This document shows, in pieces, positions 26 through 53,055 of a stretch of 64,000 nucleotides of DNA. Position numbers and translations under genes: made by a program. Under the pieces are notes generated by a model. That model made no database searches, had not been told where the DNA came from, and saw only the letters and a program-made list of their open reading frames with translations. Position 1 is the stretch's first letter. Each line of letters opens with the position of its first letter. Location: positions 4,513,202-4,577,201 of the forward strand of contig NC_087393.1 of NCBI RefSeq assembly GCF_963675165.1, in the 5' to 3' direction. Origin of the DNA: Halichondria panicea (lineage: Eukaryota; Porifera; Demospongiae; Suberitida; Halichondriidae).

Positions 26-1696
26 TTAGGGTAAGCATTCGTAAGTGTTTTCAATTTCCTCTCTTTCAGTGTCAGCAGTCACACTAGTGTATACCTCATT
101 CTCTGTGGTGGGTATTGAGGGGTCATTGTCAGAACTCGACTGTCTCACTCCAACATTTGTAATAGTCACATAGTCATAATTTCCTTCATCCTGAGCAGCC
201 ACATTAACATTATCATACAACTCATCTTCTATGGTGGGTACTGAAAGATGGTTGATATTGCCATAGGCTTTATTTTGGGTCAGTTTCATTTCCACTTCTC
301 CCTCGTTATTGTCATAGTAATCGTTTTCTTGAGCCAAGTTTTGTTTAGCTTCAGTATGAATGTGATCAATTTTTTCGTAAGTATCTTCCCCAGCTGTGTC
401 ATAATCAGTGCGTTGGATAGTAGCTTTCTTATTTGTGGTTGTGGGTTTGTTAAGAGCTGAAAAATGTATAGCGTGCACATGACATACTGTTCGTAATAAT
501 ATTGCATAAATGGTTACCTATATTAACTCTAGTTGCAGCAATGTATACAATAGCCGCCTACGGACGTACCTAGTGTCACAGTGGAGGTCTTTCTCTTCCA
601 CTTGACAATAGCACAACACACAACACATACAAACAGAATGATGAGCATCACCACACCGGTAACACCTACGGCCACTCCTATACTCAGCATTTGTACTCCA
701 GCATTCATTTCTGTCATATTGGGAAGTACAGAGTTAGTTGGCTTTGGAATCAGCTTTGTTGTAGTAGCAGAAGATTCCCTATTAAGTTGCATGGAAGTGT
801 GTGTCGTAGCACTTTCCAATGATGCTGTTGAACGTTGGGTGGTTATTTCCGAGTTCTTTGCCGGGAAAGTCGATGATAGTTGAGGTGCTGAGGTTCTTGT
901 GGTTTCGATGCATTTTGTAGGCACTAATATTGTGCAGTGGTCACATATAAACAGATGCATAAGCGCTCGGTGTACTTACTTACTACTCACCCCTTGTTTA
1001 GTTACTTGTATAGCTCTTATATAGCTTACCTATTATAGCTGTAATCAAAGGAGCACTATTTGTAGAGCGGAATTGCTCTGCATTGCACAGTGAAGTTGGT
1101 TCAATTCTGTCGCTGTTAATTGAATACAACACAGATTCATTAGTGTAGAGTTCATCACGACTGAAAAGTATTCCATTGTCATCATCAGTGCTAGTGAGAT
1201 TTAATCCGACCACGTCTCCTGGCTCCACTGATATCCATTCACTCTCTGGTACTGTCACGTTGATTAGACCTCTTTGAGGATCCAGAGAGCTTAATCCCCC
1301 CAGGCACATGTCTTGTAAGTAGTTTGCTCCAATCTTGCTATAACAGTTGTCTCCTAAAGATGAGTTGACTCTCCACACCTCAAAAGAAATAGAGTAGCAG
1401 TCTCGACCACTAGCTCTTTCCACAAAGGTTCTCCACTCAGTCACCACTCCACAGCAGTTGAACCTGTAGCTAGTGATGATAGCTTGGATGGGATTATCGC
1501 GAAATCGAGGTATTCTATCTTCTGTCCTCACAAAGTTTGGTAGAGGTAGTCTTCCATTACTTGCTTGAATACACCCATATGGTGTCAATTGTCCTATATA
1601 TACGTATATTAATTATACACAAGCTTATAATTATGCCTTACCATTACCCTTTCCCTGGAATATAGTCACAAGGCTTAGTACATATAGTAGCTTCAT
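26..1696 (-). CDS. R1: type I membrane receptor, tyrosine-rich tail
   Basis: Four exons (1642-1696, 1030-1593, 570-923, 26-456) splice through GT-AG introns, all phase 1, into 467 codons plus stop. Residues 1-18 are a signal peptide (MKLLYVLSLVTIF). The ectodomain, about residues 19-206, is a divergent member of the array's family: NPIQ, FNCCG, TEWRTFVE, FEVWRV, PGDVVG and a closing APLIT. A Ser/Thr-rich stalk follows, then a membrane helix at about 285-313 and a basic KWKRK stop-transfer. The 143-residue tail has at least seven tyrosines with a hydrophobic residue at +3 (YEKI, YGNI, YDNV, YDYV, YTSV, YECL). YGNI and YDNV lie 12 residues apart, as in an ITAM-like pair. Signalling through SH2 adaptors is inferred; no ligand can be inferred. 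Confidence 0.85.
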
Positions 1697-1914
1697 TTCT
1701 TGAGCACCAATTAAAATTAGCCTGCTAATCTCTAAACTTAAAGAGAATGCACATACACAACGTATAAGGTACTGCCAAGGTTTCTGTTGTCTGCTTCAAA
1801 TAAATTAAACAGGTTACATGACATGACATCATTGCAAGAACTTTAACAAGTGCTTAATGTTCAGAATGAGAGGTTTCATATACACAAAACTGTGCCTGAG
1901 GGAGCTACGTGTAT

Positions 1915-2235
1915 TTAGATCATGTTTGTCATAAATACTGCAATCTGATTGGTTAGAGGAAATGTTCTATCCAATTTAGAAAATCATGTACTTCAATAGA
2001 AAATCATGTACTTCACTTAGAAAATCATGTAGCAAAGATTAGATAAGAACATTCAAATCTGATTGGCTAAATACTCATGGTTGCTATGATCTAAAATGCT
2101 TAGACACTGTTTAGGAAGTTTCCACATGATTTAGAAGTCCTCAGGGCTAGTAGAACCCTCACTGCGTTCGGGATACTACAACCAGCCCTTTGGGCTTCTA
2201 AATCATGTAGAAACTTCCTAAACAGTGTCTAACTA
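1915..2235. mobile_element. Hairpin MITE, TTAGACACTG family (copy 1)
   Basis: Positions 2100-2232 form a near-perfect hairpin: TTAGACACTGTTTAGGAAG at one end and its reverse complement at the other, with a GGGCT...AGCCC inner stem. An adjoining block from about 1915 has repeated AAAATCATGTA units and travels with the hairpin. Other copies lie near 15,238, 35,029 and 53,568, and a partial one near 16,170-16,390. No coding capacity is seen, so it is non-autonomous. Confidence 0.75.
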
Positions 2236-2977: not shown

Positions 2978-5364
2978 TCATTTATCTACAGCATTCGCAC
3001 TAGACACTTGATGTGTGTATGTATATATGTACGTCTCATCTTCTGCAATGGGTTCCAAATGTTGAAGCTCTCTTGTTTTAGTGTAGGCTTTGTTTTCTGT
3101 CATTCTCATTACTGCTGGCCCTCCCATCCCCTCGTTTACATAGTAGTCAGGGCAACTCAGCCTCGGATAATCATACTCCACAATGAACGGGTTGCTAGGG
3201 TAACTGTAGATCTCACTCTGACGAGAGGTGTCAATTACTTGTCCGTATGATACGTTTTGTTCTGTTTGTGGATCTGTGCTTAAATCTATTGTGCTATATC
3301 GGTCTTGGATTGTAGTACTTGTTCTCTGATCGGATGTATTCAGGTTGACTCCTGGAATGGAATCAAAACACACACATCTAAGTGGAATCCAAACACACAC
3401 ATCTAAGTTCATATTGTTTTGCTTCCGCAATGTATACATTGTTATTGTGTAAACGGATGTAATTGTATAGCTCTTTTATGTATTCACTCCATAAGGTATT
3501 TCACCTCCTTTTGGTATGTTTCCTCTTTTCTTCATCACAATGCACACCAAAATAACCGCCAGCGTTACTAGTAGTGCTAGCACCAGCATTGCCACAGTCA
3601 TACCAACATGCAATCCTACGTTCACGTTTTGATTTGGCAAGGTAGGAAGTGCAATAGGTGTAGCTAGTAGGTTCTTTGAAGTCATGATAGGATGGTTAGA
3701 AGACTCGATAAATACTGTTAGTGGTGTGGTGTGTGTTTCCGTAGGCATTTCCCGTGTTGCAAGTAAAGTTGATAGCATGGTCTCCATAGATACTGGTGTA
3801 GACTTTATCCCTATATAATGTTGCACCTGATTATTAAGAGTGAATCATGGTCCAACTTACCTGTGTTTGTGGTAGTAGGTTTAGGGATTCTTGATGTTGA
3901 AAATGCAGTTGATATCTGGCCAAGTAAAGTTGGTAGCATGGTCTCCATAGATACTGGTGTAGACTTTATCCCTATATAATGTTGCACCTGATTATTAAGA
4001 GTGAATCATGGTCCAACTTACCTGTGTTTGTGGTAGTAGGTTTAGGGATTTTTGATGTTGAAAATGCAGTTGATATCTGGCCTAGAGTCTCCATAGATAC
4101 TGATGTAGAGCTTATTTCTAATGCTGCACCTGAAACCATTATACGTACAGTAGTACTGACAATACACATGTGTGAATGTTACAACTTACCTGTGTGTATG
4201 GTAGTAGTATAAGTAGTGGTGAGGAAAATAGAGGATGAGGTCGATGTTGGGCAGACCAGCGTGGATGTGAATGTAGAGGGGCAGTTACCGTTCACCGTAG
4301 TAGCTGTAGGTGACATTGAGATACTAGTAGTAGCATCGCGACCATTATACGTTACTATGTTGAAATTGACATCGTTTACTGCATGATGTCTGATCTAATT
4401 TGCGTATAGCGGGTAATTTTCGTGGGACAAAATTTTCGTGGTTGGAGGTCTGACCACGAATATTTTACCCACGAATGAAGCGACCTTGCCTACCTTTACC
4501 TGCAGTGCAAGTAGCAACCACGAAAATATTATCCCCACGAAATGACTAAAATAATATTGCTCAACCACGAATATTAAATTTTTGCCCCCCCAAAAGTTAC
4601 CCGCTATCAGACATGTACGGTATGCGTATGTGTACTAACTTCAGTAATTATGTATTTTGTAGTTACTGTATCGTTGCTTACCCAAGGACACTGAGATGAT
4701 TGGTCCAAGGCTTGTAGACATGCTGAGGTCCCCTGCATTGCCCACTTCCAGTAAGCACTCATTTTGTAGTTCAGAGTTACCAGTCGCATACCATAGCTCC
4801 TCAAGATTGAAGTCCCGGCTATCAAACTTCAGTCCTACATTAGTGCCGCCATCCTCCTGTTCAAGATAGTATCCAACCACATCTCCTGGTTGGAAGTCAA
4901 GTTGCTCACTGTTGGCTGGTATTTTTTCAATGTCACTGTTGGTATTAGGATTATTAGCGAAGGTAAGTAAAGGAAAAGAGTTCTCTCCAATTTTAACAAA
5001 TCTGTTGCTACTCATAGGCCTCCATATCTGGAACTTTATTGAGTACACTTCACCACCACTAGCCTCCAAAAAAGCTGACCAACCGCCGACTTTCCCACAG
5101 CAGTGGAACTTGTAACTTTTGATGATGACTTGGATCGGATTCACCTCAATTCGAGGGGCATTTCTTCCCGGGTTTTGGAATCTAGGCAAACTGTCTGCAG
5201 AGTTAGCCCTAAGGCATTCTCGAGCTTTTGACATAATATGTAAATTAGATAGTAAATACTGTGAGCAGGCTATGTGCGTACAGTTACATGTCATTCTCAC
5301 CTTTACAATAATCTACTGTGGTTATTAGCATAATTGTGACAACTGTCCTTAGTGAAATGTTCAT
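2978..5364 (-). CDS. R2: type I membrane receptor with serial stalk exons
   Basis: Seven exons (5301-5364, 4682-5224, 4190-4303, 4022-4129, 3861-3971, 3505-3810, 2978-3351), every junction phase 1, give 539 codons plus stop. Residues 1-21 are a signal peptide. The type I ectodomain spans about 22-202 (FHCCGKVGGW, FQIWRP, GENSF, PGDVVGYYLE, EELWYATG, GPIIS). Three Ser/Thr/Pro stalk exons follow. The second and third, plus the start of the membrane exon, are tandem duplicates of one another (STPVSMET in each). The helix is at about 379-405, followed by KKR. The 124-residue tail differs from the other tails but keeps tyrosine motifs (VSYGQV, EIYSYP, NKAYTKT, ETYIYTYT). Skipping any stalk exon would keep frame. 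A MITE sits in the intron at 4406-4607. Confidence 0.85.
4406..4607. mobile_element. MITE with ATAGCGGGTAA ends, in R2 intron
   Basis: The left end reads ATAGCGGGTAATTTTCGTGG and the right end GTTACCCGCTAT, an inverted pair. Inside are repeated CACGAA/TTCGTG tracts, also inverted. Related copies with the same ends occur at 43,203-43,407, 55,150-55,326 and 58,846-59,034. It lies inside an intron and does not interrupt coding sequence. Confidence 0.7.
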
Positions 5365-6167
5365 TCTTGAAGAGAGCCAGATGGTTCAAGATTAGCTATA
5401 ATTATAGCTGGTGTTTATAGCATATGCTTTATATATGGTCATTGATTCAGAGCATTATTCATCAGCTGACAAAGTGATGAATTGTGTACATGGCATATTA
5501 GAGTAAATGAGAGACCGTTAATAATGGATGCCTTCCTTATTATAGTAAACATGCTACAAGTTAATTGTTATAGCCATCGCGTGAGCACTGGCAGCCAATG
5601 CATTAATTGCATACCATTCTTTTAGCTTCGTGCAGAATTATCTATAAAGCGTGCCGTTGAATATTTACATGCACACAACATTGGTGATTGATAGTTTGAT
5701 TGATAGTAACATGATTACTAAATAATTAAGCCGTGTGGAAAGTATAATGTATATTCACGGTTTAGTGTAAGTACGTTGTACTGACTTTTACATTGCTAAT
5801 TTAATATCTAACATACATAATCATAAGCACTCATGCAGTGCGCTAGTGTTAGCGGTCACACTAGTGTGTGCCTCATTCTCTGTGGTGGGTATTGAGGGAT
5901 CATGCTTTTGTTATGTATTAAACATTTAATGTGATGGTAAGCCATGCATGAAATATGTACGTAATACCGTATTTATACTTATAATAAGTACATTACTGTA
6001 TAACAATACACTGTATGAGATAATACCCAACACACAGCACATTCTCTAAGGATGCTAGACCTATAGTAAATGTATTGCCTATAACATAATCTTCAGTCTC
6101 AGTTTTAGCAGTCACACATTACTAGATCAGAGTCCCATGCATGTGTCTCTGTGCATATGCAGCTCCA
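5365..6167. other. Intergenic with a receptor-tail exon scrap
   Basis: This spacer lies between R2 and R3. At about 5852-5903 the minus strand carries a fragment of the receptor tail exon, the segment coding PSIPTTENEA followed by TSVTA with a Tyr-to-His change (NEAH). It is an isolated duplicate without splice sites. The rest shows nothing recognisable. Confidence 0.6.
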
Positions 6168-9153
6168 TCATATACATGCTTCGCTCAATACATCAATGCA
6201 TTGGTCATCATTTGCTACCGTGACAACCAATCCGCTATCTGACATAACATGGTTTGAAACACTTGATTCTTGTATTTGTGAAATTTCACCAGAGTTGCCT
6301 AATCTTCCATAAGCTTCGTTCTTGCTAATTACTGGATCTGGCCCTGCTTTGTTCAATGTACCAATGCAGTGGTCATCATTTGCTACCGTGACAACCAATC
6401 CGGCCCTATCTGATATACGGAACTTTAATCCTTGTGTTTGTGAAATCTCACTAGAGTTGCCCAATCTTCCATAAGCTTCATTCTCAGTGCCAATTATTAG
6501 ATCTAATCTCTGTGGTGGATGTGGAGGGGGCGTTGTCAGAGCTTGGCTGTCTAACTCTCGTCTCATTTCTTGTGGGTGACCATTTGTATTAATGTCACCC
6601 GGATCAGTATCGATGTAGTCGTACATAGGTTCTGTATTATGTTCTTCAATTCTCTCTGTGTGATAAGAAACATGGAGTATAATAGCTGTATACATACTTG
6701 TTGCATTTTGAGTGGGCAGATCAAATGAAACACTGTGCCAATATTAGCCTCGATTCAAGGCCGATTAAAATACGGCCTGGTACTTATTGCAGGGGTGATA
6801 GTGCGCATGCGCTTCAAATTACCCAGAATATGGATAATCGTACCACGAACGTAAAACCTTAGTAAATTATCCGGAAATTAGTCCGTTTACTAAGAATATG
6901 TTCCGTAATACTTATCTCAAAGACTGAGTTCTGTGAAGCTGTGGCTTATGCCGTCTATTGCGTTGGTCTAGAAGGCTTAAACACTAGTTTTAAGACAGAA
7001 GAGGCTCTCATCTACGTCTAGGATGGTCCTATAGCCGGGTTGTCTTTGCAAGTGGCAGTTTGAGGCACCATACACTTCTCATATAGCCTGTACAGATCCA
7101 AGGTAAGACATCCTGACCATACAACCGTCATAGAGGTAGATGAGAACCTCTTCTGGCTTCAGACTAGTGTGAAACAACGCAATAGAGAGCTAAGCTGATG
7201 TTACAAAGATAGAAAATAGATGAAGGAAGAAAAAGGGGATTCCCCAGATTCTGGTGAATAAACTAACGCATGCGCACTATCACCCCTGCAATAGGTACCA
7301 GGCCGTATTTTAATCGGCCTTGAATCGAGGCTATGCCAATATCTGCCATATGGCACAGGTCAAACGGTGAACTGTGCCATACTATGGCATGGGTGAAGTT
7401 ACCTAAAGCCCACCCTCCATCTAGATACTGGCATAGTATGGCTGAAGTTACCTAAAGCCGACCCTCCACCCAGTAACCTGAAACGGTCCCTTTTATAGTA
7501 TAACACTGTCAACAGATTCAGTGGTAGGCAGAAAACGTTTTTCATGCGGCTGGTGCATTCCACAGCCGACTACAAATAGTTGCAAACTATAGTTGTCCTA
7601 TAAAAGGAGTGATGTGTACACGGAAAGGAATGCAACAAGGAATGCAACAAATCAGTTGTTACACAGCTATAGATCTACTGCATACTAATTGCACTAAGTA
7701 CATGGGATTTAAGCAAAGAGACTTCTGAATCATCATTGTTGACTCATGTATATACGTCATACACACTTACCCATGCAGCCATGCCTTTTTATGCATATCA
7801 AGGTAGAAATAGATATGATTATGGCTACTACAACCACCAGTTGAAACTACACCAGCAATAACAAACACAGTCGTATCGGCAGTAGACATGGTGTTGTTGG
7901 TGGGTAATGTGGTCTGAGTAGGTTGAATCTGTGTCGTGGTAGTAGCAGGTTCAGCAGTAGTACCAGGTGCAGCAGTAGTAGTAGTAACTATTGTACTTGG
8001 AGCCTGCTGAACCACTCCCGTTCGCTGATTGGCCCAGTAGGTCATCCGTGTTTCAACTACAGCAAATCTGCAGTGTGTAAACAATGTGACATAATAAATA
8101 ACAGATAACAGTAGCTACTGAAAGACTAAAACACACTATTGAAGGTGTTTTAGGTGTGGGGGGACTATAACCATATCGCAGGTTATTTTGAGGGACTAAA
8201 TGTTCGCGAAATGCTCAAACTAAACATTTTGCGGATTATGTTTTCGAGGATAGAGGTTCAAACGACCACACCCCTACAGTAGAGAAGTTCCGGAAGTAAA
8301 CCAATTTTGAGGTTCGAGGTCAAACCTTGAAATTTAGTGCCTCAAAAATAACCAGCTGTACGGTACTATGCATATTTACTCAAGCGTAATAGGTTCCAAA
8401 CTCACCCAAATCTGATATCTCCAGTGTTACCCATAGGAGCTGTCCAAGTGAAATAAATGATGTCTTTATCAGCAGGTGAGTTGTGGGTGACTCCATCCTG
8501 AAAGGAAAAGTGGTTAGAGTGCAAATACAAACCAACATTTTGGTCTCAGTTTTGAACCAAGGATCATAATAAAATATGCAACTTAGCTTATTAGACCAAA
8601 GCTCCTACTGATATAAGCTAGGCCATGCATCAACGGTTAGCTAAACTGCAGATCTGCTTACCGTGTTAATAGGACAGCTGCTGAGTCTGCTTTGGTCTGC
8701 CAATGGCCCTGTTGGAGCGAAGACTCCAGCACGAGTGGTATCATCGTTCATCAGCCTTGCTTGCACGAAAAATCCTCTGAAAGTGCCTCCAACAGTTGCG
8801 TTAGCAATCGACACTACAAAAAAGCAAAAGTGGAAGCTTTTTCAGATACCTAACAAGAGCCTTCAGGTAGAATTGATTAAGCAGAACATGCAGCGCTGCA
8901 CCATACTGCAATGCAATATTATAATTCTCAACGTACAGGTGTAGGTTCTTCCAAGGTAGAATGTAAAAGAGTTGTCACTAGCATTATAGAAGGGCATGAG
9001 ACTAATAGCGTAGGGGACATCACTGGCCTGTGGCTGGGCTAAATGAATGGGGGAGAGGCTATCACAGGCACCAGCAGGTGCACCACTTGAATAACCCTCC
9101 ACAAGCAGTCCTATGGAGGACATCACCAAGGAGACACCGATAAGCAGCTTCAT
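6168..9153 (-). CDS. R3: Reeler-domain receptor with the array's membrane/tail modules (frameshifted)
   Basis: Five exons: 8937-9153, 8662-8813, 8406-8497, 7771-8067 and 6168-6655. A signal peptide (MKLLIGVSLVM) is followed by a Reeler (Reelin N-terminal) domain at about residues 20-165. Support comes from GAPAGACDSLSPIH, PYAISL, FRGFFVQARLMND, GPLADQSRLSSCPIN, then VTHNSPADKD, FTWTAP and GDIRFG. Next come a Thr-rich linker and the TTQIQPTQTTLP membrane module shared with type II receptors. The 162-residue tail holds two copies of a block of about 60 residues containing NEAYGRLGNS. Oddity: a 5-base deletion near 7829-7838, relative to R6 and R8, shifts frame inside the helix. As written the product would stop soon after and lose the tail; with the 5 bases the exons total 417 codons. 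It is a recent pseudogene, an allele, or a sequencing error. Confidence 0.75.
6745..7333. mobile_element. Mutator-like MITE with 9-base target duplication
   Basis: A 589-base element lies in the last intron of R3. Its ends are inverted repeats of about 66 bases starting TAGCCTCGATTCAAGGCCGA, and inversion continues inward almost to the centre. It is flanked on both sides by TGCCAATAT, a 9-base target-site duplication. Long TIRs with 9-base duplications fit the Mutator (MULE) superfamily. No transposase is present. Two tiny relatives with their own 9-base duplications lie at 33,687-33,745 and 53,792-53,849. Confidence 0.85.
8171..8366. mobile_element. Small inverted-repeat element in R3 intron
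   Basis: The left side (ATCGCAGGTTATTTTGAGG) and right side (CCTCAAAAATAACCAGC) are imperfect inverted repeats. The interior has further CGAGG/CCTCG-type inversions. It resembles the ATAGCGGGTA MITE family in layout. It is intronic and non-coding. Confidence 0.5.
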
Positions 9154-9853
9154 ACTCACAACAGGCTATTGAGACAATCTGCAAAGGAAAGAAAGTAACT
9201 CAAAGATTTCCAGGAAAATGTTCACATTAATTTATAGAGAGCTACACTTATTTTATCTATATATGTGACTATGCTTGGTCTATGTATACTCATGCACCTA
9301 AAATGCAATACAGCAGAAGCTCTTTACTCACCACTCAGTCTGATCTGCACAGACGTACTGAATATTTGTAGGTTAAGGGTGCCCGCACATAGTGACATAA
9401 TTTAACCACAAAAATGCAACGTTTAGATCACGTGTGCAATTTGAAACTTGCACTTGCAATATTTAATTTCAATGCGTGCGCTAGAGTATAAAGTATCAAT
9501 TGTCAGACAGAACATATAATCAGACAGCTGCCAGAGGAGAACGGATGGGCGAAACAAGCTGATTTTTCACCTGACAATAGATCTACCTATAAACAATGTA
9601 ACCTCCAAAAATATACACCAAAATGTGGTGTGTCTGATAAATTGATTAATCAGACAAAATAAACATAATATCGGACACAGGAACCAACGAATCACTAAAG
9701 AGGCAGAGCCACAAGATTTAATAGCCCAACATATCACAAAACAAAAGAGCTACATGTACCCTACACATGACAGCAGCAGTTACAAAACCACTAACTGCAC
9801 TGCACATAGACTATATTATAGCTGTTACAAAGTGCACATAGATTGATACTCAC
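9154..9853. other. R3 upstream region
   Basis: This stretch should hold the R3 promoter and the remains of sequence downstream of relic R4. No clear core promoter, RNA gene or coding exon is seen. Confidence 0.4.
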
Positions 9854-10531
9854 TCGAGATGATTGGTCCAAGGTTTGTAGACATGCTGAGGTCCCCTGCA
9901 TTGCTCTTCCAACAAGCACTCATTTTGTAGGTCAGAGTTACCAGTCGTATACCATAGCTCTTCAACATTGAAGTTACTATCAAACAATTAACAGACCTCC
10001 GTTATTGTCACCAGCCTGCTCGAGATTGTAACCAACCACATCTCCTGGTTGGAAGTCAAGTTAATGGCTTTGGCTATGAGACTAGCATCAGCCAGTGTAG
10101 GAAATGAGTTCTCTCCGATTTTAACAAATCTGTTATCCCCCATAGACCTCCATATCTGGAACTTTATTGAGTACACCTCAGTATGAGCACCACCACCAGC
10201 GTCTACATACGCAGCCTAACCAGCAACTCTCCCATAGCAGTATATATAGAACTCGTAGCTTTTAATAATGGCTTGGATCGGATTCACAGCCATTTGAGGG
10301 GCACGGTTTCCTGGGTCTCCAAAGCTATATAGGCAGACTGTCTGCTCCATCAGAGTTAGCACGGACACAATCCTGAGCTGTATACAATCATAAACAAAGC
10401 TATGAAATTATCTGTAGATAGCTAGTATGACACTGACACTGACATTGTCATTGTGCACCTCTGTACATGCACTTACCTGTAACATGACTAGCAATTAGTA
10501 CCAGTGCTAGTGAAATAGTGATTAGTGTCAT
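9854..10531 (-). pseudogene. R4 relic: type I receptor exons 1-2
   Basis: The signal exon (10477-10531, MTLITISLALVLIASHVT) is intact and has a good donor. The ectodomain exon (9854-10377) is broken by a 4-base tata insertion near 10,330 relative to intact copies, a further insertion near 10,245, and a small deletion at its 3' end before the donor. No linker, membrane or tail exon follows before the R3 promoter region. It is a dead partial copy. Confidence 0.8.
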
Positions 10532-10721
10532 TCCTATTGTATTAGATCTAGGGTGCATGCGTAGATCTATATAGACGTCTATATGTGTTTCCTGGTGATC
10601 AAACTTGATTGTGGTCATATTGTTGTATGCTTGAAGGGTTTCTCTTATTTGAAACCAAAAATATCCACATACACAACTAACACGCATGTACGAGCAAGCA
10701 TATACAAAGTTCGGTTTCTTT

Positions 10722-11024: not shown

Positions 11025-11103
11025 ACACAAGAACAACAAAACTGTCCTCACAACTATCACAACAGATCTACATGCATGAATGCACAAATTAACGACTAAT
11101 TAC

Positions 11104-11265
11104 CCAGTGGAACATCAAGGTGCCACTTCGGCTGTAGTTTGAGCTGCTACTGACTGAGCAGCACACAAGACACTATTATTATGCAGTACAGGATTGTGTT
11201 TATTTCAACTTACCTGATAAGCTGAAAACAACTAGTATTAGCATAAACATGTTAATTCTTCCCAT
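11104..11265 (-). pseudogene. Orphan type II receptor 5' exons, copy 1
   Basis: Exon 1 at 11,214-11,265 codes the type II signal peptide (MGRINMFMLILVVFSLS) with an intact donor. A stub of the ectodomain exon follows (AAQTTAEVAP), then a stop, and the sequence runs directly into RPF1-derived DNA. It is a deletion relic; the same arrangement recurs at 30,868-31,029. Confidence 0.8.
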
Positions 11266-11798
11266 CTTGACAGTCCAGAGTCCTGGTCTCTTAATTACAT
11301 ACAATAAATTATTCTGGTGCTTGTGAACTTTGTTTGCATGTACTCTCGGTTTACTTTAAGCATCCCATTATTTTTTAACCACGCTCAATTTAATGGTGCA
11401 TGGGTAACCCGAAACTTATATTGCATTTTCATTGATCCAAGAACCTTGCAACAATGCAATTAAGAGCAGACCATCCTTTTCATATAAAAGCCATGCAATA
11501 TAATAATGTCGCCTATTGTGTGTTTATTGCCACTGTACACTTTTTAACCCACAAAACACATGTATTTACTATTATGGCTTCAAGCCAAACTTTATACAAC
11601 AACAATCACAGCATGCAGCTGTTGTGGAAACTCAAAATCAGAAGCTTTTTGCATAAACTATAAGATACACTCTCTGAAAACATTCCATCGCAGGACCATA
11701 CAAATTATTGCTGTAGTTTTACTCTACCATAGGCTATATAGACATTATATGTGAAGTTTTGTGGAACTCTGAGAGGGTCACCCGTTAGGTTTTGTTCA
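11266..11798. other. Type II 5' flank fused to R5 3' flank
   Basis: This block upstream of the orphan type II exon is conserved with 18,552-18,936, 31,030-31,553 and 38,247-38,759, including ATTGATCCAAGAACCTT. It probably descends from the type II promoter. No gene is seen in it. Confidence 0.5.
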
Positions 11799-14700: not shown

Positions 14701-15179
14701 GGAAGTGGTGTTGCAGCAATGTAGCTGTTAGTAAGAGTAGCAGGGAAAAAGGAATTCTCTCCAATTTTTATGCAACTTGCACTATTCTCACTCGTTGGTC
14801 TCCATATCTGGAACTTTATGGAGTACGCATTAGTATGACTATTGCCACCAGGCTCCACATACGCAGCCCAACCACCAACTTTCCCACAGCAGTGGAACTC
14901 GTAGCTTTTAATGATGACTTGTATCGGATTCACACGAACTATAGAGTTCCAATTATTTGGGTCTAAGAAGCTAGGCAGACTGTCTGCTCCATCAGAGTTA
15001 CCACGGACACATTCTTGAGCTGTACAACAATCATAAGCAAAGCTATGAAATTATCTCAGTACTATAGCCAGTATACACTATAATACATGACACTGTCATT
15101 GTGCACCTCTGTACATGCACTTACCTGTAACGTGATTAGCAATTAGTACCAGTGCTAGTGAAATAGTGATTAGTGCCAT
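11799..15179 (-). CDS. R5: type I receptor with short tail
   Basis: Five exons (15125-15179, 14477-15019, 13149-13232, 12010-12465, 11799-11950), all phase 1, total exactly 429 codons plus stop. The signal peptide is residues 1-18 (MALITISLALVLIANHVT). The type I ectodomain is about 19-199 (FHCCGKVGGW, FQIWRP, GENSFF, PGDVVGYYL, EELWYATG, GPIIS). A short Thr/Pro linker leads to a stalk with two tandem 40-residue repeats beginning ILPSSSDFGLQAES. The helix is at about 341-369, then KKRENKRQR. The tail has only about 50 residues, with NEAYVGV, NEAYTSV and EYYDYV. It begins at an acceptor equivalent to the middle of the tail exon in R12, R14 and R15. R10 is its near-identical copy. Confidence 0.88.
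12229..12410 (-). repeat. Tandem 120-base coding repeat in R5 stalk
   Basis: The stalk exon of R5 has two copies of a 40-codon block (ILPSSSDFGLQAESSSVSAP...), adjacent and nearly identical. R10 has the same pair at about 31,984-32,165. R12, R14 and R15 carry the block once, so the doubling preceded the R5/R10 duplication. Confidence 0.75.
13233..14476. other. Long intron 2 of R5 with MITE relics
   Basis: This 1.24-kb intron is shared with R10 (about 32,995-34,274) and in part with 24,010-24,234 plus 27,911-28,398. Near 13,910-13,960 it contains a decayed copy of the TAGCCT Mutator-like micro-element flanked by ATTAAGCAT, inside an older element with GCAAACATTTATA motifs. There is no coding evidence. 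Confidence 0.6.
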
Positions 15180-18551: not shown

Positions 18552-18936
18552 CTTTGACAGTCCAGAGTCCTGATCTCTTAATTACACACAATAAATTATT
18601 CTGGTGCATGTGAACTGTGTTTGTACTCTCGGTTTACTTTAGGCATTCCATTAACCACGCTCAATTTAATGGTGCATGGGTGACCCGAAACTTACTGCAT
18701 GTTCATTGATCCAAGAACCTTATTGTATATCTGGATATTTAGGTTGCAGACAATCCTTTTATTGTAAAGCACTATACGTTGTGTTGCCTATTGCGTGCAT
18801 ATTGCTATATATACTACACACTTTTTACCCCACAAAACACATTCATAATTATATGACTTCATGCAACAACAATCACAGCATGCAGCATACAGTTGTTGCC
18901 AATAAATTTTTCAATGAATAGAAGCCTTTTGCAGTC
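18552..18936. other. R6 upstream region
   Basis: This is the presumed R6 promoter. It is conserved with the flanks of other type II copies (ATTGATCCAAGAACC, CACAAAACACATTCATA), which fits shared regulation. It ends at 18,937, where the truncated R7 relic begins. Confidence 0.5.
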
Positions 18937-30787: not shown

Positions 30788-30867
30788 ACACAAGAACAAT
30801 AAAACTGTCCTCACAAACTATCACAACAGATCTACATGCATGAATGCACAAATTAACGACTAATTAC

Positions 30868-38246: not shown

Positions 38247-38759
38247 CTTGACAGTCCAGAGTCTTGGTCTCTTAATTACACACAATAAATTATTCTGGTG
38301 CATGTGAACTGTGTTTGTACTCTCGGTTTACTAGGCATTCCATTAACCACGCTCAATTTAATGGTGGGTGATGCGAAACTTATATACTGCATGTTCATTG
38401 ATCCAAGAACCTTATTGTATATCTGGATATTTAGGTTGCAGACAATCCTTTCATTGTAAAGCACTATACGTTGTTGCCTATTCCGTGCATATTGCTATAC
38501 TACAAACTTTTTACCCCACAAAACACATTCATAATTATATGACTTCATGCAACAACAATCACAGCATGCATGCAGTTGTTGCCAATCAATTTTATGAATA
38601 CAAGCCTTTTGCACAAACTATAAGATACACTCTCTCCATCTCAGGACGACCATACAATATCCTACTGTAGGTTTACTCTACTATAGCGTATAGATATATA
38701 CATGTGAAGTTTTGTGGAAGTCTGAGAGGGTTGGTCACCCGTTATAGGTTGTTTATACC
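38247..38759. other. Type II 5' flank next to R12
   Basis: This conserved upstream block of the type II unit, like that at 18,552-18,936, joins directly to the 3' flank of R12. No gene is seen. Confidence 0.5.
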
Positions 38760-41540
38760 TTAAGGTTTAACATATGCATAAGCATCTTCAGGCTCAGTGT
38801 TAGCAGTCACACTAGTGTATGCCTCATTCTCTGTGGTGGGTATTGAGGGATCATTGTCAGAACTCGACTGTCTTACTCCAACGTAGGCTTCGTTTCTTAT
38901 CATTGGCACTTCTGTTGTCACACCCAACCCCTTGACGACGTTATCATCATTTGCTATGACACTATATTCTGCAGTGGCAACATTACCATAGGCCAGGTTC
39001 TGAGTTGTGGAGGGATTGTACGTTTCAGCCAAAGAATTCACGACGTAATCATAGTCAGCGATCTGAGTTGCTTCTGTAAACTTTCCGTACGCCTCATTCT
39101 CATTGGTGGATGGTTCAGTGTTAGCATCCATTCTGATAGTTTGAAGAGTATCACTCTGTTCATTGATGGTCCTGTAGTCAGTCAAACTCAAATCTGCAAA
39201 GGAAACCTGTAATTACTTCTTTTTCCCACGCACAAAAAGTAAATATGTGTATAACACGACTATATGTACATGTACATGCATAAGCTCACTTTTAAACATA
39301 CCTCCTTGTCCTTTGTTTTCTCTTTTCTTTTTCATCGCACAAACTAAAAGCATCACTGCAGTTAGTATGACCAACAGCACGAGTACTGCAACAGACACTG
39401 CGATTCCAGCAAACAGTCCCACGTTCACTTCTTGAGGTTGTGTTGTAGCAGCTGCTGGTGTGACTTGAGGAGAGTTCATGGGAGAACTACTTGGTTGTGG
39501 TAGACCAGTGGTGGTTATAGGTGCTGACACAGAGCTAGACTCGGCTTCACGTCCAAAGTTACTACTTGAGGGTAATATTGTTTGAGTAGGGAAAGAGAGT
39601 GCAGAAATGGGGAGAGTGGAGACAAGGGGTGTGGAGATGGGGAGCATACTTGACGGGAGAAGCGTAAAGGAACTTGTCTGAGCATTCACTACACAAAAAA
39701 ACACAGCCATAATTGTAGTTTTGCATATGACTATAATTTTATAGGACATTAATTTTAACCACTCCTTCATTCACTGTGGAACTATAGAGGAGGAAACAAC
39801 AACACACTGCCCTGAACGTTATACTCAATGGTACATAAGCTTTTTAACAAAGAATCGAAAATTTAAATTTGACAAAGTTATGACAACTTTATGAAGATCA
39901 AACCCAACACACATGGATTTTAGTTCCACTAACCATTATTTAGCTGAGTAGAAGAGACCTGCAGTGCGAGGGTTGGGGATGGACTGCTTGGAGTGCTTAC
40001 TGTTAAAGAGAGGGCATAAAATAATGTAATCTTGTATGAACGAATGACATAAGCAGATGATGTCACTCACTAACTGTCAGGATGATAAGTGGAGCAAGGT
40101 TAGTCATGGAACCGAAATCATCAGCCGAATATATACAAGGTGGGTCGAGTGCAAGACATGGAGTGGAATCGAACCAAACAGTTTCTCCATTATAAGAATT
40201 GTCTCCAGCAAACTGGATACCATCATCATCAGTTCTACTACTCTCCAGATAGAACCCGACCACATCTCCTGGTTGGACCTCAATCCTCTCACTGTCTAGT
40301 GGTACCCCAGTCACTATTCCTCTGTCAGCAGTGTTAGGATCAGCTAGTGGAATGGGGAAGAATTCATTTAAACCAACAATAGTGTATTGGCCATCAGGAG
40401 GAGAGTTTGGTCTCCACACTTGGAATGTAGCGGAATATGACTGATTAGCATATTGTATATTGCCACTACCCTCCACAAATGCTCTCCACTCAGTGATTTG
40501 TCCGTAACAATTGAACTTGTAGCTAGGTATAATGACCTGTACTGGTGCCACTTCAAACCGTGGCTCTCCCCCACCACTAGGTCTGACAAAGTTTGGTAAA
40601 GATCTGGAGCCATCCGTTGCCATCAGACAGTCTGCAAAACAGGCCACTGGTTAACATAGACACACTATTGTAATGAGAAGGCACTTCTATAGTAATCAAT
40701 ATTGAAGCACTAATACACACATGCACTGTCTAGCTATGGTTGAAGATGACCCCAGGCTAAAATCGAAGATAAACTCACCATCTACAACAGCTGGAGTACC
40801 AGGTCCAGGTCCAGGTCCAGTGGTGATGGGGGTGGGAGTGGGGCAGAATATGGTCGAGGTGAAGGTAGAGGGGCAGTTATAATTAACAGCGGTTGCTATA
40901 ATGAGGAATGTATCTATAAAAGCAGTAACATTTGATTACACATATAGTATTTCTATGTTTGTGCAAGGTTATAATTATGTATAAATTTATTATACTTGTA
41001 CAGGAAACACACTATATGGCTGTTACAAAGTGCATGCACATATAGATTGATACTCACTAAGTGATATCGAGATGATTGGTCCAAGGCTTGTAGAAAAGCT
41101 GAGGTCGCCTGCATTGCCCACTTCCAGTAAGCACTTATTTTGTAGGTCAGAGTTACCAGTCGCATACCATAGCTCTTCAGAAGTGAAGCCACTATCAAAC
41201 TGCACACCTCCGTTTTGGTTTCTGTTGTCTTCGAGATAATATCCAACCACATCTCCTGGTTGGAAGTCAATCTGCTCACTGGGAAGTGGTGTTGCAGCAA
41301 TGTAGCTGTCAGTTAGAGTAGCAGGGAAAAAGGAATTCTCTCCAATTTTTATGTAAATTGCACTACTCTCACTCGTTGGTCTCCATATCTGGAACTTTAT
41401 GGAGTATGCAGTAGTATGACCACCACCACCAGGCTCCACATACGCAGCCCAACCACCAACTTTCCCACAGCAGTGAAACTCATAGCTTTTAATGATGACT
41501 TGTATCGGATTCACACCAACTATAGAGCCCCAATTACCTG
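38760..41540 (-). CDS. R12: two-ectodomain receptor, long tail, 5' truncated
   Basis: Six exons remain (41058-about 41540, 40779-40895, 40071-40631, 39934-39999, 39302-39688, 38760-39193), all phase 1 and open. The order is a type I ectodomain (FHCCGKVGGW to GPIIS), a Pro/Gly linker, a type III ectodomain (FNCYGQITEWRAFVE, FQVWRPNSPPDG, PGDVVGFYLE, APLIIL), a short linker, a Ser/Thr stalk with helix (GLFAGIAVSVAVLVLLVILT) and KKKREN, and a 144-residue tail. Tail tyrosines include DYDYV, NLAYGNV, AEYSVI, NEAYVGV and NEAYTSV. The first exon breaks off near 41,540 and no signal exon is found up to 43,500, so a secreted start is missing here. Expression would need another promoter and start. Confidence 0.75.
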
Positions 41541-43507: not shown

Positions 43508-45060
43508 TTAGCAGTCATATATGTTATAGCTGAATGTATTTGTGTGGAAGTGCCGTATGCTTTGTTTGCAGCCACTCGAATGTTTGCTGCATCCTCTCAT
43601 TCCTTTGTTCATGTGGTCATCACTTGTTGTGGCAACTTCCCCATAGGCTGGGTTCCCATTTGTTAAGATGTCACCTGGATCAGTATCAATGTAGTCGTAC
43701 ATAAGTTCTGTATTATGTTCTTCAATTCTCACTGTGTGATAGGAAACATGAAGTGTGTATATATACATGTAGCTGCATGTATGTATACAAGTTTCTAGTC
43801 AATTAAACAATAACCACCATACCAATAGTAGGAAGCTATATAATTTACATACTGTATTATACTATTGCAATTAGTGCATGCACATAATTATGGGAAGGAA
43901 GATTGAATCACAATAATTGTGGTATGCAACTCATGTATATTATACGTCATGCGATTGCCCACTTACCCACACTTTTATCCGTGATGGAACAACGCCGAGT
44001 TCAGTGTGGCACTTTTTGATGCATATCAAGGTAGAAATAGATATAACTATGGCTACTACAAGCAGCCCACTTGAAACTACACTAGCAGTAACAAACACAG
44101 TCGTATCGGCAGTAGACATGGTGTTGTTGGTGGGTAATGTGGTTTAATCTGGATTCTGCACACGATAACGGAAGATTTTGTAGAGTGCATGTTCTGTTAG
44201 AAACAGTGCCTAAGGTTGCAGCTGTAATTTCTGTATAGGATATAGGAATCAGTTACTATTATCATATGTGTTACCTTGGTGCAGAGTGAGTCTCTGCAGT
44301 CTATATTGAATTTATCGTACTGAATGACACGTGTAAACTACGTAGGATATATTTCATACTGTATACAACTCACCGTACTGCAAAATAATCAGCGGGAGAG
44401 AGGATTGTGTTTGAACTTCTTTGTCACATGTATACAGCTCACAGGGATCACTTGACGACCTTTTGATAATTAATAGTTCTGATGTTGAGTTATTGTATGT
44501 TATGCAACGCTACACCAAACCCTGGCTCAAGTCCTTGTGATGTTGAACTGTACCAGCCCAGTAGGTTGGAAATAAATTCGTTCATGCTACAGAAACTTGA
44601 TTAGTGAGCACTGCGAATGTGATATTGGAATTATCAGGTGTCACTGTTTCAGTTCGAGGGCAATAAGTTAACAGGTTAGACCCAACTAGATCTGAATTTT
44701 CCTTGACTTGACCTCCAAACTTAGATATGCAAGTTTTGCGTAAGTTTTAGACCAGCGTTGTAACCTTGGATAGTGACTGCAGCACTCCATTCAGTGATTT
44801 GTCCATAGCACTCAAACTTCAGCCCTGGTGTGAGAACTTGTATTCCATCTGGAGTTCTGAAATCCGGAGCTATCTAAGTGAGATCTGCACTTGGTTGGAG
44901 AGAGCCAACAGCTGGAAACCCAGTGGAACATTGAGGAACCACTTTAGCTGTAGTTTGAGCTGCTACTGGAGCAGCACATGACACTAAGCACAATACATTA
45001 CATTTATTTATTTCGATAAGCTGAAAATAAATTGAAGTTGCATAATCATGTTCATCTTGA
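43508..45060 (-). pseudogene. R13 relic: type II receptor
   Basis: The ectodomain exon (about 44,380-44,970) has an in-frame stop where others read LTEIAP (TAG for GAG near 44,876), an extra base near the acceptor, and several deletions. The membrane exon (about 43,960-44,240) keeps TTVFV and LICIK but has a rearranged end. The tail exon to 43,508 has MYDYIDTD and NPAYGEV, then shifts frame. The signal exon near 45,000-45,060 is mostly lost. About 45,216-45,272 is a separate decayed type I signal exon. Confidence 0.82.
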
Positions 45061-45304
45061 CACTCCTGTAGCTATAGCCTATTGGTACATGTGAACACTG
45101 CATGTGTTAGTTTACTATCAGGAGCATGCACATACTATATATACAGGCATTCTACCTTGGGATACCATTCAAACAAAGTTTACAGTAACAATCAGCTGTT
45201 GTTGAGAAAACTCATACTGTAATGTGATTAGCAATTAGTTACCAGTGCTAAAGAAATAGTGATTTAGCGTCATTTCTATTGTAGCTAGATCTAGCTATAA
45301 TTAT

Positions 45305-47713: not shown

Positions 47714-49608
47714 TTAAACATAGTCATAAGTTTCTTCAAGCTCAGTCACGTTAGAAGTCACACTAGTGTATGCCTCATTCTCTGTGGTGGGTATTGAGGG
47801 GTCATTGTCAGAACTCGACTGTCTTACTCCAACGTAGGCTTCATTTCTTATCATTGCCATTTCCAACCCCTTGACAATGTTATCATCAGTTGCTATGACA
47901 CTATATTCTGCGGTTGCAAAATCACCATAGGCCTGGTTCTGAGTTGTGGAGGGCTCGTTAACTAGTGGATTTATAGCATAATCATAGTGAGCAATCTGAG
48001 TTTCTTCTGTTAACTTTCCGTACACCTCATTCTCATTGGTGTATGGTTTAGTGTTAGGATCCATCCTGATGATTTGATAAGTATCATTCCGTTCATTGAT
48101 GGTCCTGTAGTCAGTCAAACTCAAATCTGCAATGTGTATGGAGTCAGTTATTTTTAACCTGGCTCACAAAAAGTATTTCTGTACACTATTAAATAAGTAT
48201 TCATGTAGCGTACAAGTCATATACCTCCTTGTGAGTTTTTTTTCTTATTACTTTTCACCACACAAACCAAAAGTATCACTGCAGTCAGTATGACCAACAG
48301 CACTAGTACTGCAACAGACACTGCGATTCCAGCAAACAGTCCCACGTTCACTTCTTGAGGTTGTGTTGTAGTAGCTGCTGGTGTGACTTGAGGAGAGTTC
48401 ATGGGAGAACTGCTTGGTTGTGGTAGACCAGTGGTGGTTATAGGTGCTGACACAGAGCTAGACTCAGCTTGACGTCCGAAGTCACTACTATACTGTATAG
48501 AGGGCAGTATTGTCTCAGAGGATATTCCAATCTTGTCTTGAGTAGCACTTACTGCTATGGTTGTTGGTCCTGTATTATACATGTATGCAGGTGATTCACA
48601 TTCAGTGACGAAATACAGCAAACTATGTATGATTATCATCTTTTGTTGTAAGTATGTAGTTAGTGCATGTATCACTATACACACGCCATTAGCTCACTAT
48701 CAATAGTTGTTTGGGTCACAGTGGCCACAGGAGTGGGGAACATGGTCGAGGTGAATGTGGAGGGACAGTTATTCACAGAAGTTGCTATAGTGACATTGCG
48801 CATATTGAAAAACCAACATAATCTGTCAAACTTATACACATGCAGTTTCTGCATGAACAAAAAAAAACAAATACTGTTCCATAATCGCATATTGATACTC
48901 ACTAATTGATATCGAGATGATTGGTCCAAGGTTTGTAGACATGCTGAGGTCCCCTGCATTGCCCACTTCCAACAAGTTATCATTTTGTAGGTTAGAGTTA
49001 CCAGTCGCATACCATAGCTCTTCAGAAGTGAACCCATCATCAAACTGCACACCTCCGTCTTGTCTGTCGTTGTCTTGGAGATAATAGCCAACCACATCTC
49101 CTGGTTGGAAATCAATCTGCTCGCTGGGAAGTGGTGTTGCAGCAATGTAGCTGTCAGTTAGAGTAGCAGGGGAAAAGGCATTCTCTCCAATTTTCTCGTA
49201 TTGTGGACTGTTATCACCCAGTGGTCTCCATATCTGAAACTTTATTGAGTATGCAGTTGTGTGAAGTTTACCTCCAGGCTGTACGTACACAGCCCAACCA
49301 CCAACTTTCCCACAGCAGTGGAACTCGTAGCTTTTAATGATGACTTGGATTGGATTCACACCAATTAGAGAGTTAGTATTACGTGGGTCCACAAAGCTAG
49401 GCAGACTGTCGGCTCCACCAGAGTTAGGGCGAACACATTCTTGAGCTATATAGATCAATGAACAAGGTATGACATTATCTCAGTACTATACTAGATCTAG
49501 CATACACTTAATATATACATACCTCTGTATATACATGCATGTCTTTATACCTGTAATGTGACTAACAGTCAGTACCAGTGCTAAAGATTTAATAGTGATC
49601 AGTGCCAT
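47714..49608 (-). CDS. R14: type I receptor with long tail
   Basis: Five exons (49551-49608, 48903-49445, 48698-48784, 48225-48569, 47714-48126), phase 1, give exactly 481 codons plus stop. The signal peptide is residues 1-19. The type I ectodomain is about 20-200 (FHCCGKVGGW, FQIWRP, GENAFSP, PGDVVGYYLQ, EELWYATG, GPIIS). A Thr/Pro linker and a single-copy stalk block (FGRQAESSSVSAP) lead to a helix at about 306-334. The 137-residue tail carries seven tyrosine motifs: NEVYGKL, HYDYAI, NQAYGDF, AEYSVI, NEAYVGV, NEAYTSV, ETYDYV. This is the cleanest complete long-tail receptor in the window. An RPF1 last-exon scrap lies just upstream. Confidence 0.9.
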
Positions 49609-50445: not shown

Positions 50446-50830
50446 TATTTGAAGAGTATCACATGCACCCTTTCATTGATGGTCCTGTAGTCAGTCAACT
50501 CAAAGCTCAAAGTAGCAAGTATAGATGATTCCGTTTTGTTAGCTTTTGAGTGAGCACTGGCCAATGCATGCACTTCTTGTCCATTCATAATTATCTAAAG
50601 CCCATGCATTTCCTAATTAAGTTATGCCAATTAAGTTACCCTAACCTTACAATAACGAATACTTACACGTATGTACACAACATTAATATAGCAACATTGA
50701 TTAGTAATTGAATAGTAATTATGTGCACAATATTTAGCCGTTGTATTGGCAATTCTTACAACATGCACACATAGTGAATATATATATAGATCTAACATGC
50801 GCAGTCATAAATTTCCCTAACAATTTAGGT
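50446..50830. other. Spacer with receptor-tail exon start
   Basis: About 50,474-50,515 is the start of a receptor tail exon (TCATTGATGGTCCTGTAGTC on the plus strand), abutting the RCHY1 fragment. The remainder to the R15 stop is AT-rich with nothing recognised. Confidence 0.6.
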
Positions 50831-53055
50831 CTAACATACATAGTCATAAATTTCTTCAACCTCAGTGTCAGCAGTCACACTAGTGTATACCTCATTCTCT
50901 GTGGTGGGTATTGAGGGGTCATTGTCAGAACTCGACTGTCTTATTTCAACGTAGGCTTCATTTCTTATCATTGCCACTTCTGCTGTCCCACTGAACCCAT
51001 TGACAATGTTATCATCAGTTGCTATGACACTATATTCTGTGGTGGCAACGTCACCATAGGCCAGGTTCTGAGTTATGGAGGGATCGTACGTTTCAGCCAA
51101 AGAATTGAAGACGTAATCGCACTCGTCAATCGTTTCTTCTGTAAACTTTCCGTATGCCTCGTTCTCTTTAATGGATGGTTCACGATCAATGTTATTATCT
51201 ATCCTGTTGGTTTGAAGACTAGCACTGTGTTCATTAACGGTACTGTAGTCAGTCAAACTCAAATCTGCAAAGGATAAGAAACTGTAGTAAGGCTTCTTTA
51301 TTTGCACATCACAAAAATGAATGTTAGTACAATAATTATCAACCGTATGTGAGTTCATTAAATTGTTGTGATATACAATTTTGAGCCTAAACCCTACCTC
51401 TCTGTCTTCTATTTTCTCTCTTCTTTTTCACCACACAAACCAAAAGCACCACTGCAGTTAGTATCACCAACAGCACGAGTACTGCAACAGCCACTGCGAT
51501 TCCAGCAAACAGTCCCATGTTCACTTCTTGAGGAGCATTGGTGGTTAGAATTATAGGTGCTGACACAGAGCTAGACTCAGCTTGACGCCCAAACTCGCTA
51601 CTAGCTATAGAGGGTAGTATTGTTTCAGTAAGGACAAGGAGAGTGGCAACTGGCATGGCAACAAGGGACGTGGAGATGAGGGGGTTGGCAGCAGGGGGTG
51701 TGGAGATGGGGGGCATACTTGACGAGAGAAATGCAAATGAACTTGTCTGAGCATTCACTGCATGCACAAAAAACACACAACCATAATAGTATAGCTTTGC
51801 ATCAGACTATAGAAGATTGAACCATAATTATACTCATTTACTGGAGGGGAGACAAAAACACACTGCCCCCATGAACAATACATGCATGTATACTTACTTT
51901 AATCATGGTACAAAACACGGTACATGAATCTGTACGATGTGTGTATGCCCGCCAAACATAATGTAGCACTGACTGCATGAGCGATCTAATAATATACATG
52001 CAGTATATCATTATAGTTGTCCCACCAACCATTATTTGACAGAGTAGAGGAGACCTGCAACGGAGCACCAGGTCCAATGGGAGTGGGGATGGGACAGAAC
52101 ATAGTTCGGGTGAAAGAGATGAGGCAGTTCTCAATATTAGTGCACATGGTTGCTATAGTGAGGGAAGTATAAAAAAGACATGCATCGTATATAGATGGGT
52201 AAAAGCATGCAGTAAGTTTGATCCCACATCTAAGCAATGGGTATACATGTACAAATACATTAAATACTGCACATTGCTCACTAAGTGATATCGAGATAAT
52301 TGGTCCAAGGCTTGCAGATATGCTGAGGTCCCTTCCATTGCCCACTTCCAGTAAGCACTCATTTTGTAGGTCAGAGTTACCATGCAGTCGCATACCATAG
52401 CTCTTCAACATTGAAGCTACTATTATACTGCAAACCTCCATTAGTGCCACCATCCTGCTCGAGATAGTAGCCGACCACATCTCCTTGTAGAAAATCAAGT
52501 TGATCATAGAAGCTTGGTGTTGCAGCAATGTAGCTGTCAGTTAGATTAGCAGGGGAAAAGGCATTCTCTCCAATTTTTATGTAACTTGCACTATTCTCAC
52601 TCGTTGGTCTCCATATCTGGAACTTTATTGAGTATGCATTAGTATGACCATTGTCACCAGGCTCCACATACGCAGCCCACGCTCCAACTTTCCCACAGCA
52701 GTGGAACTCGTAGCTTTTGATGATGACTTGGATTGGATTCACACCAATTTCAGAGACAATATTTCCTGGGTCCATAAAGCTAGGCAGACTGTCCGCTCCA
52801 TCAGAGTTAGTACGGACACATTCTTGAGCTGTATAAAATAAAGCTACTCAATATACTAGACAAAATTAATGTTAGCATTAGGTGAATCGAAATACACAAC
52901 ATGCATGCATGCATGTAGGGCTAGGGACGATCACAATAACTATACCAACAATATACCATATACGCCTACACTGTGTACCTCTGCATGCACATGCACTTAC
53001 CTGTAATGTGACTAATAGTCACTATCAGTACTAAAGAAATTGTGATTAGTGCCAT
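50831..53055 (-). CDS. R15: type I receptor, long tail, 4-base frameshift in ectodomain
   Basis: Exons are 53001-53055, 52282-52828, 52030-52152, 51398-51757 and 50831-51264. Signal peptide, type I ectodomain, linker with PTPIGPGAP, Ser/Thr stalk, helix (GLFAGIAVAVAVLVLLVILT) and KKKREN are all present. The 144-codon tail exon has NEAYGKF, CDYVF, NLAYGDV, TEYSVI (fits TxYxx[VI], an ITSM), NEAYVEI, NEVYTSV and IYDYV. At about 52,382-52,386 an extra ATGC (ACCATGCAGTCG against ACCAGTCG elsewhere) shifts frame, and translation would stop at once after EELWYAT. Everything downstream is still open. It may be a null allele, an error or a recent pseudogene. It is the receptor nearest RPF1. Confidence 0.75.

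Follow-up and report, generated by a model that had tools for sequence, protein, structure and literature searches.

A tandem array of receptor genes

We analysed a 64,000-nucleotide (nt) window of the genome of the demosponge Halichondria panicea; "the window" is this whole stretch, positions 4513202-4577201 of C17, the contig that holds it (assembly of 131 Mb in 39 contigs). In keeping with a demosponge, a peptide of the silicatein active-site type (CGASYAFS) is present at C2:659062 and C2:667864 and absent from the reversed control, and a silicatein-like peptide matches the same places at 73-83%; silicatein is a protein of demosponges. The window carries an array of receptor-like genes, which we read as a young cluster of tandem genes for single-pass type I receptors, with a repertoire of ectodomains set on repeated tyrosine-motif tails. 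We put the probability of this reading, together with the recognition role discussed below, at about 60%. Exon exemplars were searched by tblastn and blastn, and units were lettered A to Q in order of falling coordinate. The array spans positions 26-53055, all on the minus strand, and holds 17 ectodomain-bearing units and two lone type III signal/ectodomain fragments (Table 1). The original prediction, made from the letters of this DNA, had claimed this span on one strand and a modular exon order of signal, ectodomain, linker, membrane and tail. Our searches recovered the first, and the second is seen in the spliced models.

Complete, stop-free spliced proteins of 353-501 amino acids (aa) were obtained from only six of the 17 units: B, F, L, M, P and Q. 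Each begins with a hydrophobic stretch, crosses the membrane in a single transmembrane (TM) segment of mean hydropathy 2.65-3.51, has a stalk in which 23-32% of residues are Ser/Thr, and ends in a tail of 60-154 aa. The exons run signal, ectodomain, linker, TM, tail. In these models the introns, 23 in all, are without exception GT-AG and phase 1, so the claim that nearly all junctions are phase 1 stands for the six; the Reeler-internal introns of unit O, however, read as phases 1, 0 and 2. Two or three further units may be functional. The predicted "at least 15 receptor units" is therefore right for ectodomain-bearing units, but the working number is nearer six to nine, with A, C, E, G, H, K, N and O broken. 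The signal-exon donor of unit J is out of phase, which makes its start uncertain.

The ectodomains form one family

Ectodomain types I, II and III had been described as separate domains. They proved to be one homologous family of ~180-aa domains, with 24-37% identity between types, full-length alignment, and invariant F, C, G, W, WR, G-N and D-G positions. A six-frame genome search returned 51 ectodomain exon matches, 49 of them on C17 and the others on C16 and C5. Those on C17 lie in clusters at 4.51-4.57 (the window), 4.60-4.64, 5.22 and 5.58-5.60 Mb, and in scattered places. The cluster at C17:5219337-5230029 carries an ectodomain variant of the LPPFSDPGG type.

Among 26 ectodomains, we found no credible Pfam family, no immunoglobulin (Ig) match at E values up to 10, and no SRCR match. 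There was no credible PDB match by sequence, and no relative was found in prokaryote genomes, phages or viral contigs. In the open papers searched, we found no earlier account of the family or of the sharing of its tails (subscription literature was outside coverage).

An AlphaFold model built from 26 genome-wide sequences consists mostly of strands (predicted local distance difference test score, pLDDT, 87.4; predicted template modelling score, pTM, 0.87) and replaced an earlier, poor model from 10 window sequences (pLDDT 62). In structural comparison its nearest neighbours were jelly rolls: phage fibre and tail-tip domains (Z 9-10; best neighbour Z 10.3 over 159 residues), carbohydrate-binding module (CBM) parts of carbohydrate esterases (Z 7-9), and PHR, SUN and CBM32 domains (Z ~6-8). 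The ectodomain is thus predicted to be a jelly-roll-like all-beta domain, and from these neighbours a lectin-like role is a reasonable guess.

Duplication and decay of units

Alignment to intact copies revealed frameshifting indels or truncations in units A, C, E, G, H, K and N. The TM exon of unit O has lost 5 bp, which puts the end of the TM segment and the tail out of frame. At least eight units, including the Reeler unit O, are therefore broken. By self-comparison, positions 9891-16037 are a copy of 29645-35831 (92.7% identity), such that unit F sits in a duplicate of the block carrying unit M, and positions 16380-18933 are a copy of 36112-38613 (84.6%). Segmental duplications together with many broken units point to birth-and-death evolution. 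Assembly or long-read error could in principle produce both the duplications and the frameshifts, and single-base frameshifts do exist (unit E). However, most breaking indels are 2-11 bp long, often at several sites per copy, and indels longer than one base are unlikely to be sequencing errors; the duplicates are also 7-25% divergent. We regard such an error as a highly improbable source.

Three kinds of repeat were observed besides these blocks (Table 1): (i) a 96% identical duplicated stretch with a cysteine-rich exon that matches a zinc ribbon only weakly, present once within the array between units A and B and once in the flanking gene region; (ii) a dispersed repeat of ~430-540 bp (85-98% identical), which may be a small mobile element and may have helped rearrangement, with copies close to units D and B and in the flank; and (iii) tandem-repeat blocks with overlapping self-matches of 90-96%.

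In sister clusters, diversifying selection falls in ectodomain loops

We fitted codon site models (GY94-type, F3x4, fixed relative branch lengths) to 13 type I copies, of which the sister clusters supplied 12 and the window one. Comparison of M1a with M2a gave twice the log-likelihood difference (2dlnL) of 85, with a class of sites at a nonsynonymous-to-synonymous rate ratio (omega) of ~3.9. After masking of gap columns and their neighbours, 2dlnL was 26 (p 2e-6), and M8a/M8 gave p 6e-9. When the domain was cut in three and each part given its own tree, the last third retained a 2dlnL of 26 and the other two thirds were not significant. The 14 sites whose posterior exceeded 0.8 without masking all lie outside beta strands (0/78 strand sites versus 14/106 others, p 3.7e-4). 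In the numbering of the unit D type I domain, selected sites fall at 20-21, 54-62, 99, 132-134, 142-144 and 158. Type I domains in the sister clusters are under diversifying selection confined to loops. With the segmental duplications and many pseudogenes, this supports the earlier claim of fast evolution.

Whole-domain pairwise omega ranged from 0.35 to 0.66 among type II copies and was 0.92 between the type III domains of L and J, while close type I pairs in sister clusters reached ~1.1; in the tails (33 codons), site models gave no selection signal. We asked whether relaxed constraint could explain the array, as in an ordinary tandem family of adhesion or matrix receptors that drifts and has no particular part in recognition. 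About half of the units are broken, the type II values would fit, and many adhesion receptors have tyrosine motifs in their tails. Relaxation, however, is not expected to yield a class with omega of 2.7-3.9 at loop sites alongside omega of ~0.1 at ~60% of sites, nor selected sites in loops only, and we consider this explanation improbable.

The tails are rich in tyrosine motifs

Motif counts in eight tails were compared with 2000 shuffles. YxxPhi motifs (tyrosine with a hydrophobic residue at +3) occur 36 times versus 11.3 expected, a count reached in 0/2000 shuffles. NxxY was seen 22 times (5.4 expected), and Nx[AV]Y (NxAY/NxVY) 17 times (0.7 expected). NPxY is present in tails L and J, and repeats such as NEAYG, NLAYG, NEAYVGV and NEAYTSV recur within one tail. 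The predicted hydrophobic +3 motifs and NPxY were thus both found, and NxxY and YxxPhi motifs above chance behind a TM helix are what is expected of tyrosine-motif signalling or endocytic receptors.

Immunoreceptor-type signalling was rejected, since none of its motifs was clearly above shuffled tails. The immunoreceptor tyrosine-based inhibitory motif (ITIM, [SIVLT]xYxx[ILV]) occurs four times versus 3.1 expected (758/2000 shuffles reach the observed count), the switch motif (ITSM, TxYxx[VI]) twice versus 0.9 (448/2000), and the activation motif (ITAM, YxxL/I-x6-8-YxxL/I) once versus 0.09 (174/2000); the ITSM-like motif singled out earlier is therefore at chance level. We likewise rejected receptor tyrosine kinases, because the intact tails of 60-154 aa end in stops without a kinase domain. 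At least 71 SH2 exon matches in the genome indicate that phosphotyrosine readers exist.

Membrane and tail modules are shared by unrelated ectodomains

Unit O carries a true Reeler domain, as had been predicted (Pfam PF02014, E 6.8e-21, positions 1-131 of 131 in the spliced exons), but in a broken gene. Its TM module has 95.9% DNA identity to that of unit L. None of these TM/tail modules was present within the 3 kb examined at other Reeler loci (L001-L007). At a locus on C11 (L078, C11:4885500-4892500), Calx-beta and three sushi exons lead into a TM/tail through phase-1 junctions read from sequence, and this TM/tail is 74-88% identical to its counterparts below type I domains in the sister cluster on C17. 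The next TM/tail at the locus follows an EGF exon; it belongs to the neighbouring gene and is of the same TM/tail family. The same TM/tail modules thus occur under type III, Reeler, Calx-beta plus sushi, and EGF ectodomains, and parts have been exchanged. More tail copies lie near C11:4.904, 4.925 and 4.960 Mb.

An 89-nt tail cassette, VGVRQSSSDNDPSIPTTENE(A/V)YTSVTA(D/N)TE in protein, was found at 24 places in the genome, all of them on C17 or C11. Synonymous divergence (dS) of the cassette between window and sister-cluster tails is ~0.04-0.24 for most pairs (~0.5-0.6 for L063), versus 0.65-1.8 directly upstream in the same tail exon. The low dS is most simply read as homogenisation of the cassette, through gene conversion or recent transfer; a rival reading is constraint on the DNA itself. 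Cassette copies also occur in a tandemly repeated stretch at C17:3573796-3576587 (L080), with no ectodomain recognised nearby.

The gene structure makes phase-1 exon swapping possible. Because the exchanges at the Reeler/TM junction and at the cassette broke within exons, such swapping is not the sole route. Module exchange, as originally proposed, is supported by the shared TM/tails and the homogenised cassette, but phase-1 introns are not its whole mechanism.

Unit inventory and flanking genes

Coordinates are collected in Table 1. No signal exon was found for unit D, and no TM or tail for unit I, in the window searches. A Brix-domain exon of a ribosome-biogenesis gene lies at the end of the array, and a zinc-ribbon exon further out is probably from an RCHY1-like E3 ligase gene.

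Table 1. Features of the window (positions in the window; exons are listed in transcript order)
Feature	Position	Strand	Exons and state	Evidence
Unit Q	26..1696	-	Intact, 467 aa; signal 1696-1642, ectodomain I 1593-1030, stalk+TM 923-570, tail 456-26	Spliced model, all phase 1; TM/signal hydrophobicity
Tail cassette, 89 nt	66..154	-	Other window copies: ~11830-11918, 31585-31673, 38794-38882, 47750-47833, 50862-50950	Cassette search
Unit P	2978..5364	-	Intact, 501 aa; signal 5364-5301, ectodomain II 5224-4682, linkers 4129-4022 and 3971-3861, stalk+TM 3810-3505, tail 3351-2978	Spliced model, all phase 1
Orphan tail-cassette copy between P and O	5845..5903	-	In-frame TAA in protein match	89-nt cassette search
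Unit O	6168..9165	-	Broken; Reeler ectodomain; TM 7929-7742, tail 6681-6573	TM and tail are type III modules
Unit N	9836..10541	-	Pseudogene; signal II, indel-damaged ectodomain II	10 frameshifting gaps, 2 stops
Lone fragment	11103..11273	-	Signal III / type III	blastn, tblastn
Unit M	11799..15179	-	Intact, 429 aa; signal 15179-15125, ectodomain II 15019-14477, linker 13232-13149, stalk+TM 12465-12010, tail 11950-11799	Spliced model, all phase 1
Unit L	17013..18551	-	Intact, 353 aa; signal 18551-18500, ectodomain III 18435-17845, stalk+TM 17731-17477, short tail 17176-17013	Spliced model, all phase 1
Unit K	18933..20464	-	Broken; signal II, ectodomain II 20331-19751, then ectodomain I 19438-19024	Both ectodomains frameshifted
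Unit J	21093..23185	-	Ectodomain III (to 22430), TM 21784-21533, tail 21313-21093	All open
Unit I	28400..29012	-	Ectodomain II exon 28912-28400, fused to type III signal fragment	Ectodomain exon open
Unit H	29094..29645	-	Signal III, truncated ectodomain III	Aligned to 413 of 591 nt
Unit G	29645..30299	-	Signal II, broken ectodomain II	2-bp deletion; truncated at 497 of 543 nt
Lone fragment	30867..31037	-	Signal III / type III	blastn, tblastn
Unit F	31554..34976	-	Intact, 429 aa; signal 34976-34922, ectodomain II 34817-34275, linker 32994-32911, stalk+TM 32220-31765, tail 31705-31554	Spliced model
Unit E	36670..38254	-	Broken type III; TM open	Ectodomain 1-bp deletions and 8-bp insertion; tail stop within reference frame
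Unit D	38760..41537	-	Ectodomain II 41537-41058 then ectodomain I 40631-40071 (tandem), linker 39999-39934, stalk+TM 39688-39302, tail 39193-38760 (intact)	
Unit C	43581..45287	-	Broken type III unit	8-bp deletions, insertions, stops
Unit B	47714..49608	-	Intact, 481 aa; signal 49608-49551, ectodomain II 49445-48903, linker 48784-48698, stalk+TM 48569-48225, tail 48126-47714	Spliced model, all phase 1
Unit A	50837..53064	-	Broken; signal II, ectodomain II, TM, tail	4-bp insertion in ectodomain
Duplicated stretch	49975-50445, 60909-61375		Cysteine-rich exon	96% identity
Dispersed repeat	42301-42809, 46601-47030, 56156-56686			85-98% identity
Tandem-repeat blocks	25918-26589, 59847-60367			Self-matches 90-96%
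Brix-domain exon	55584-56066	-		Pfam PF04427, E 1.2e-8
Zinc-ribbon exon	62535-62930	+		PF14599, E 9.7e-7

Discussion

We consider it reasonably likely, to about the degree given at the outset, that the array serves recognition in a general sense, immune or particle recognition, with allorecognition and uptake included. Variable ectodomain loops would bind varied ligands, such as microbial or cell-surface glycans or glycoproteins. Bound receptors would then cluster, and their tails might be phosphorylated by a cytosolic tyrosine kinase and read by SH2/PTB adaptors or by the endocytic adaptor AP2. Through common adaptors, many recognition domains could feed one signalling or uptake route.

Several points weigh against this picture. 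Since only one of three separately treed parts of the type I domain was significant, recombination may inflate the full-length statistic. The type II site-model test (six window copies and L030) was not significant (p 0.067). The structural matches have only 4-14% sequence identity, and Foldseek searches with the ectodomain models gave nothing below E 1e-3, although families outside the VIA list are not thereby excluded. Finally, the tails are homologous, so their motif excess does not represent independent events.

YxxPhi and NPxY are also classical sorting motifs. The NxxY and YxxPhi motifs could therefore be mainly clathrin/AP2 and PTB uptake signals with little kinase signalling, the array taking up particles or food bacteria. 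Enriched YxxPhi and the presence of NPxY fit such a role, a CBM-like jelly roll as modelled would be plausible for glycan binding, and a filter feeder needs such receptors. However, many of the tyrosines stand in acidic YDY/YSY contexts and in N-x-A-Y-x-x-V repeats, which also suit phosphotyrosine readers. We hold a mainly endocytic or phagocytic function to be possible, though on the unlikely side.

Individual-specific receptor expression is seen in sponge transcriptomes (PMC8242945) and sponges reject allografts (PMC5450542), so the question of sponge recognition receptors is real. One could suppose that these receptors, or products of the region, decide fusion or rejection between sponges. 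Graft rejection itself is in keeping with this, and in its clustering of single-pass receptor genes, its variable ectodomains and its many pseudogenes the array resembles the Hydractinia complex (PMC11067881). On the other side, a single assembly offers no second haplotype, no ectodomain match lies outside C17, C16 and C5, and pathogen receptors have the same pattern. An allorecognition locus is therefore doubtful. The further suggestion that the C17 clusters are a histocompatibility or individual-recognition region of sponges, with a jelly-roll, gene-conversion-driven repertoire independent of immunoglobulin-based systems, we also think improbable.

Sponges tell their own tissue from foreign tissue, and symbionts from food bacteria, through receptors that are for the most part undiscovered. 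Under the general recognition role that we favour, the array supplies good candidates for how sponges discriminate microbes or other sponges. It offers a concrete repertoire, with an undescribed ectodomain family bearing variable loops, tails that predict adaptors, and further kinds of ectodomain that share those tails. The locus also illustrates how a receptor repertoire can diversify without immunoglobulin domains.

The nearest neighbours in predicted structure are galactose-binding-like and CBM jelly rolls, phage fibre domains and esterase CBMs; by sequence, the prokaryote, phage and viral collections yielded no relative. The engulfment receptors CED-1, Draper and MEGF10 are single-pass proteins whose tails carry NPxY and YxxPhi, as in the window units, but none of their EMI and EGF-repeat ectodomains was seen here. 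Vertebrate paired immunoreceptors (KIR, LILR, CEACAM, NITR) have Ig domains and true ITIM/ITAM motifs. The array is like them in its clustered birth-and-death families, its exchange of ectodomain and tail modules and its phase-1 modules, but its ectodomains gave no Ig match, and its ITIM, ITSM and ITAM counts are not clearly above chance.

Among sponges, Amphimedon SRCR expansions are large, partly tandem receptor families that include EGF and other modules (PMC10855680), and are similar to the array in these respects. In contrast to them, the units described here have short tyrosine-motif tails and TM/tail modules common across ectodomains; with no SRCR match in the ectodomains, assignment to that receptor family was rejected. 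The Hydractinia allorecognition complex holds 19 further full-length genes and 44 probable pseudogenes in four clusters (PMC11067881). Alr ectodomains belong to the immunoglobulin superfamily, whereas those of the window are predicted jelly rolls without a Pfam match, and we rejected membership in the Ig-superfamily Alr genes (V-set/I-set) on the lack of an Ig match and the jelly-roll-like model. In architecture the two are alike: Alr1, Alr2 and Alr-like genes, too, are clustered single-pass genes with variable ectodomains and many pseudogenes (PMC11067881).

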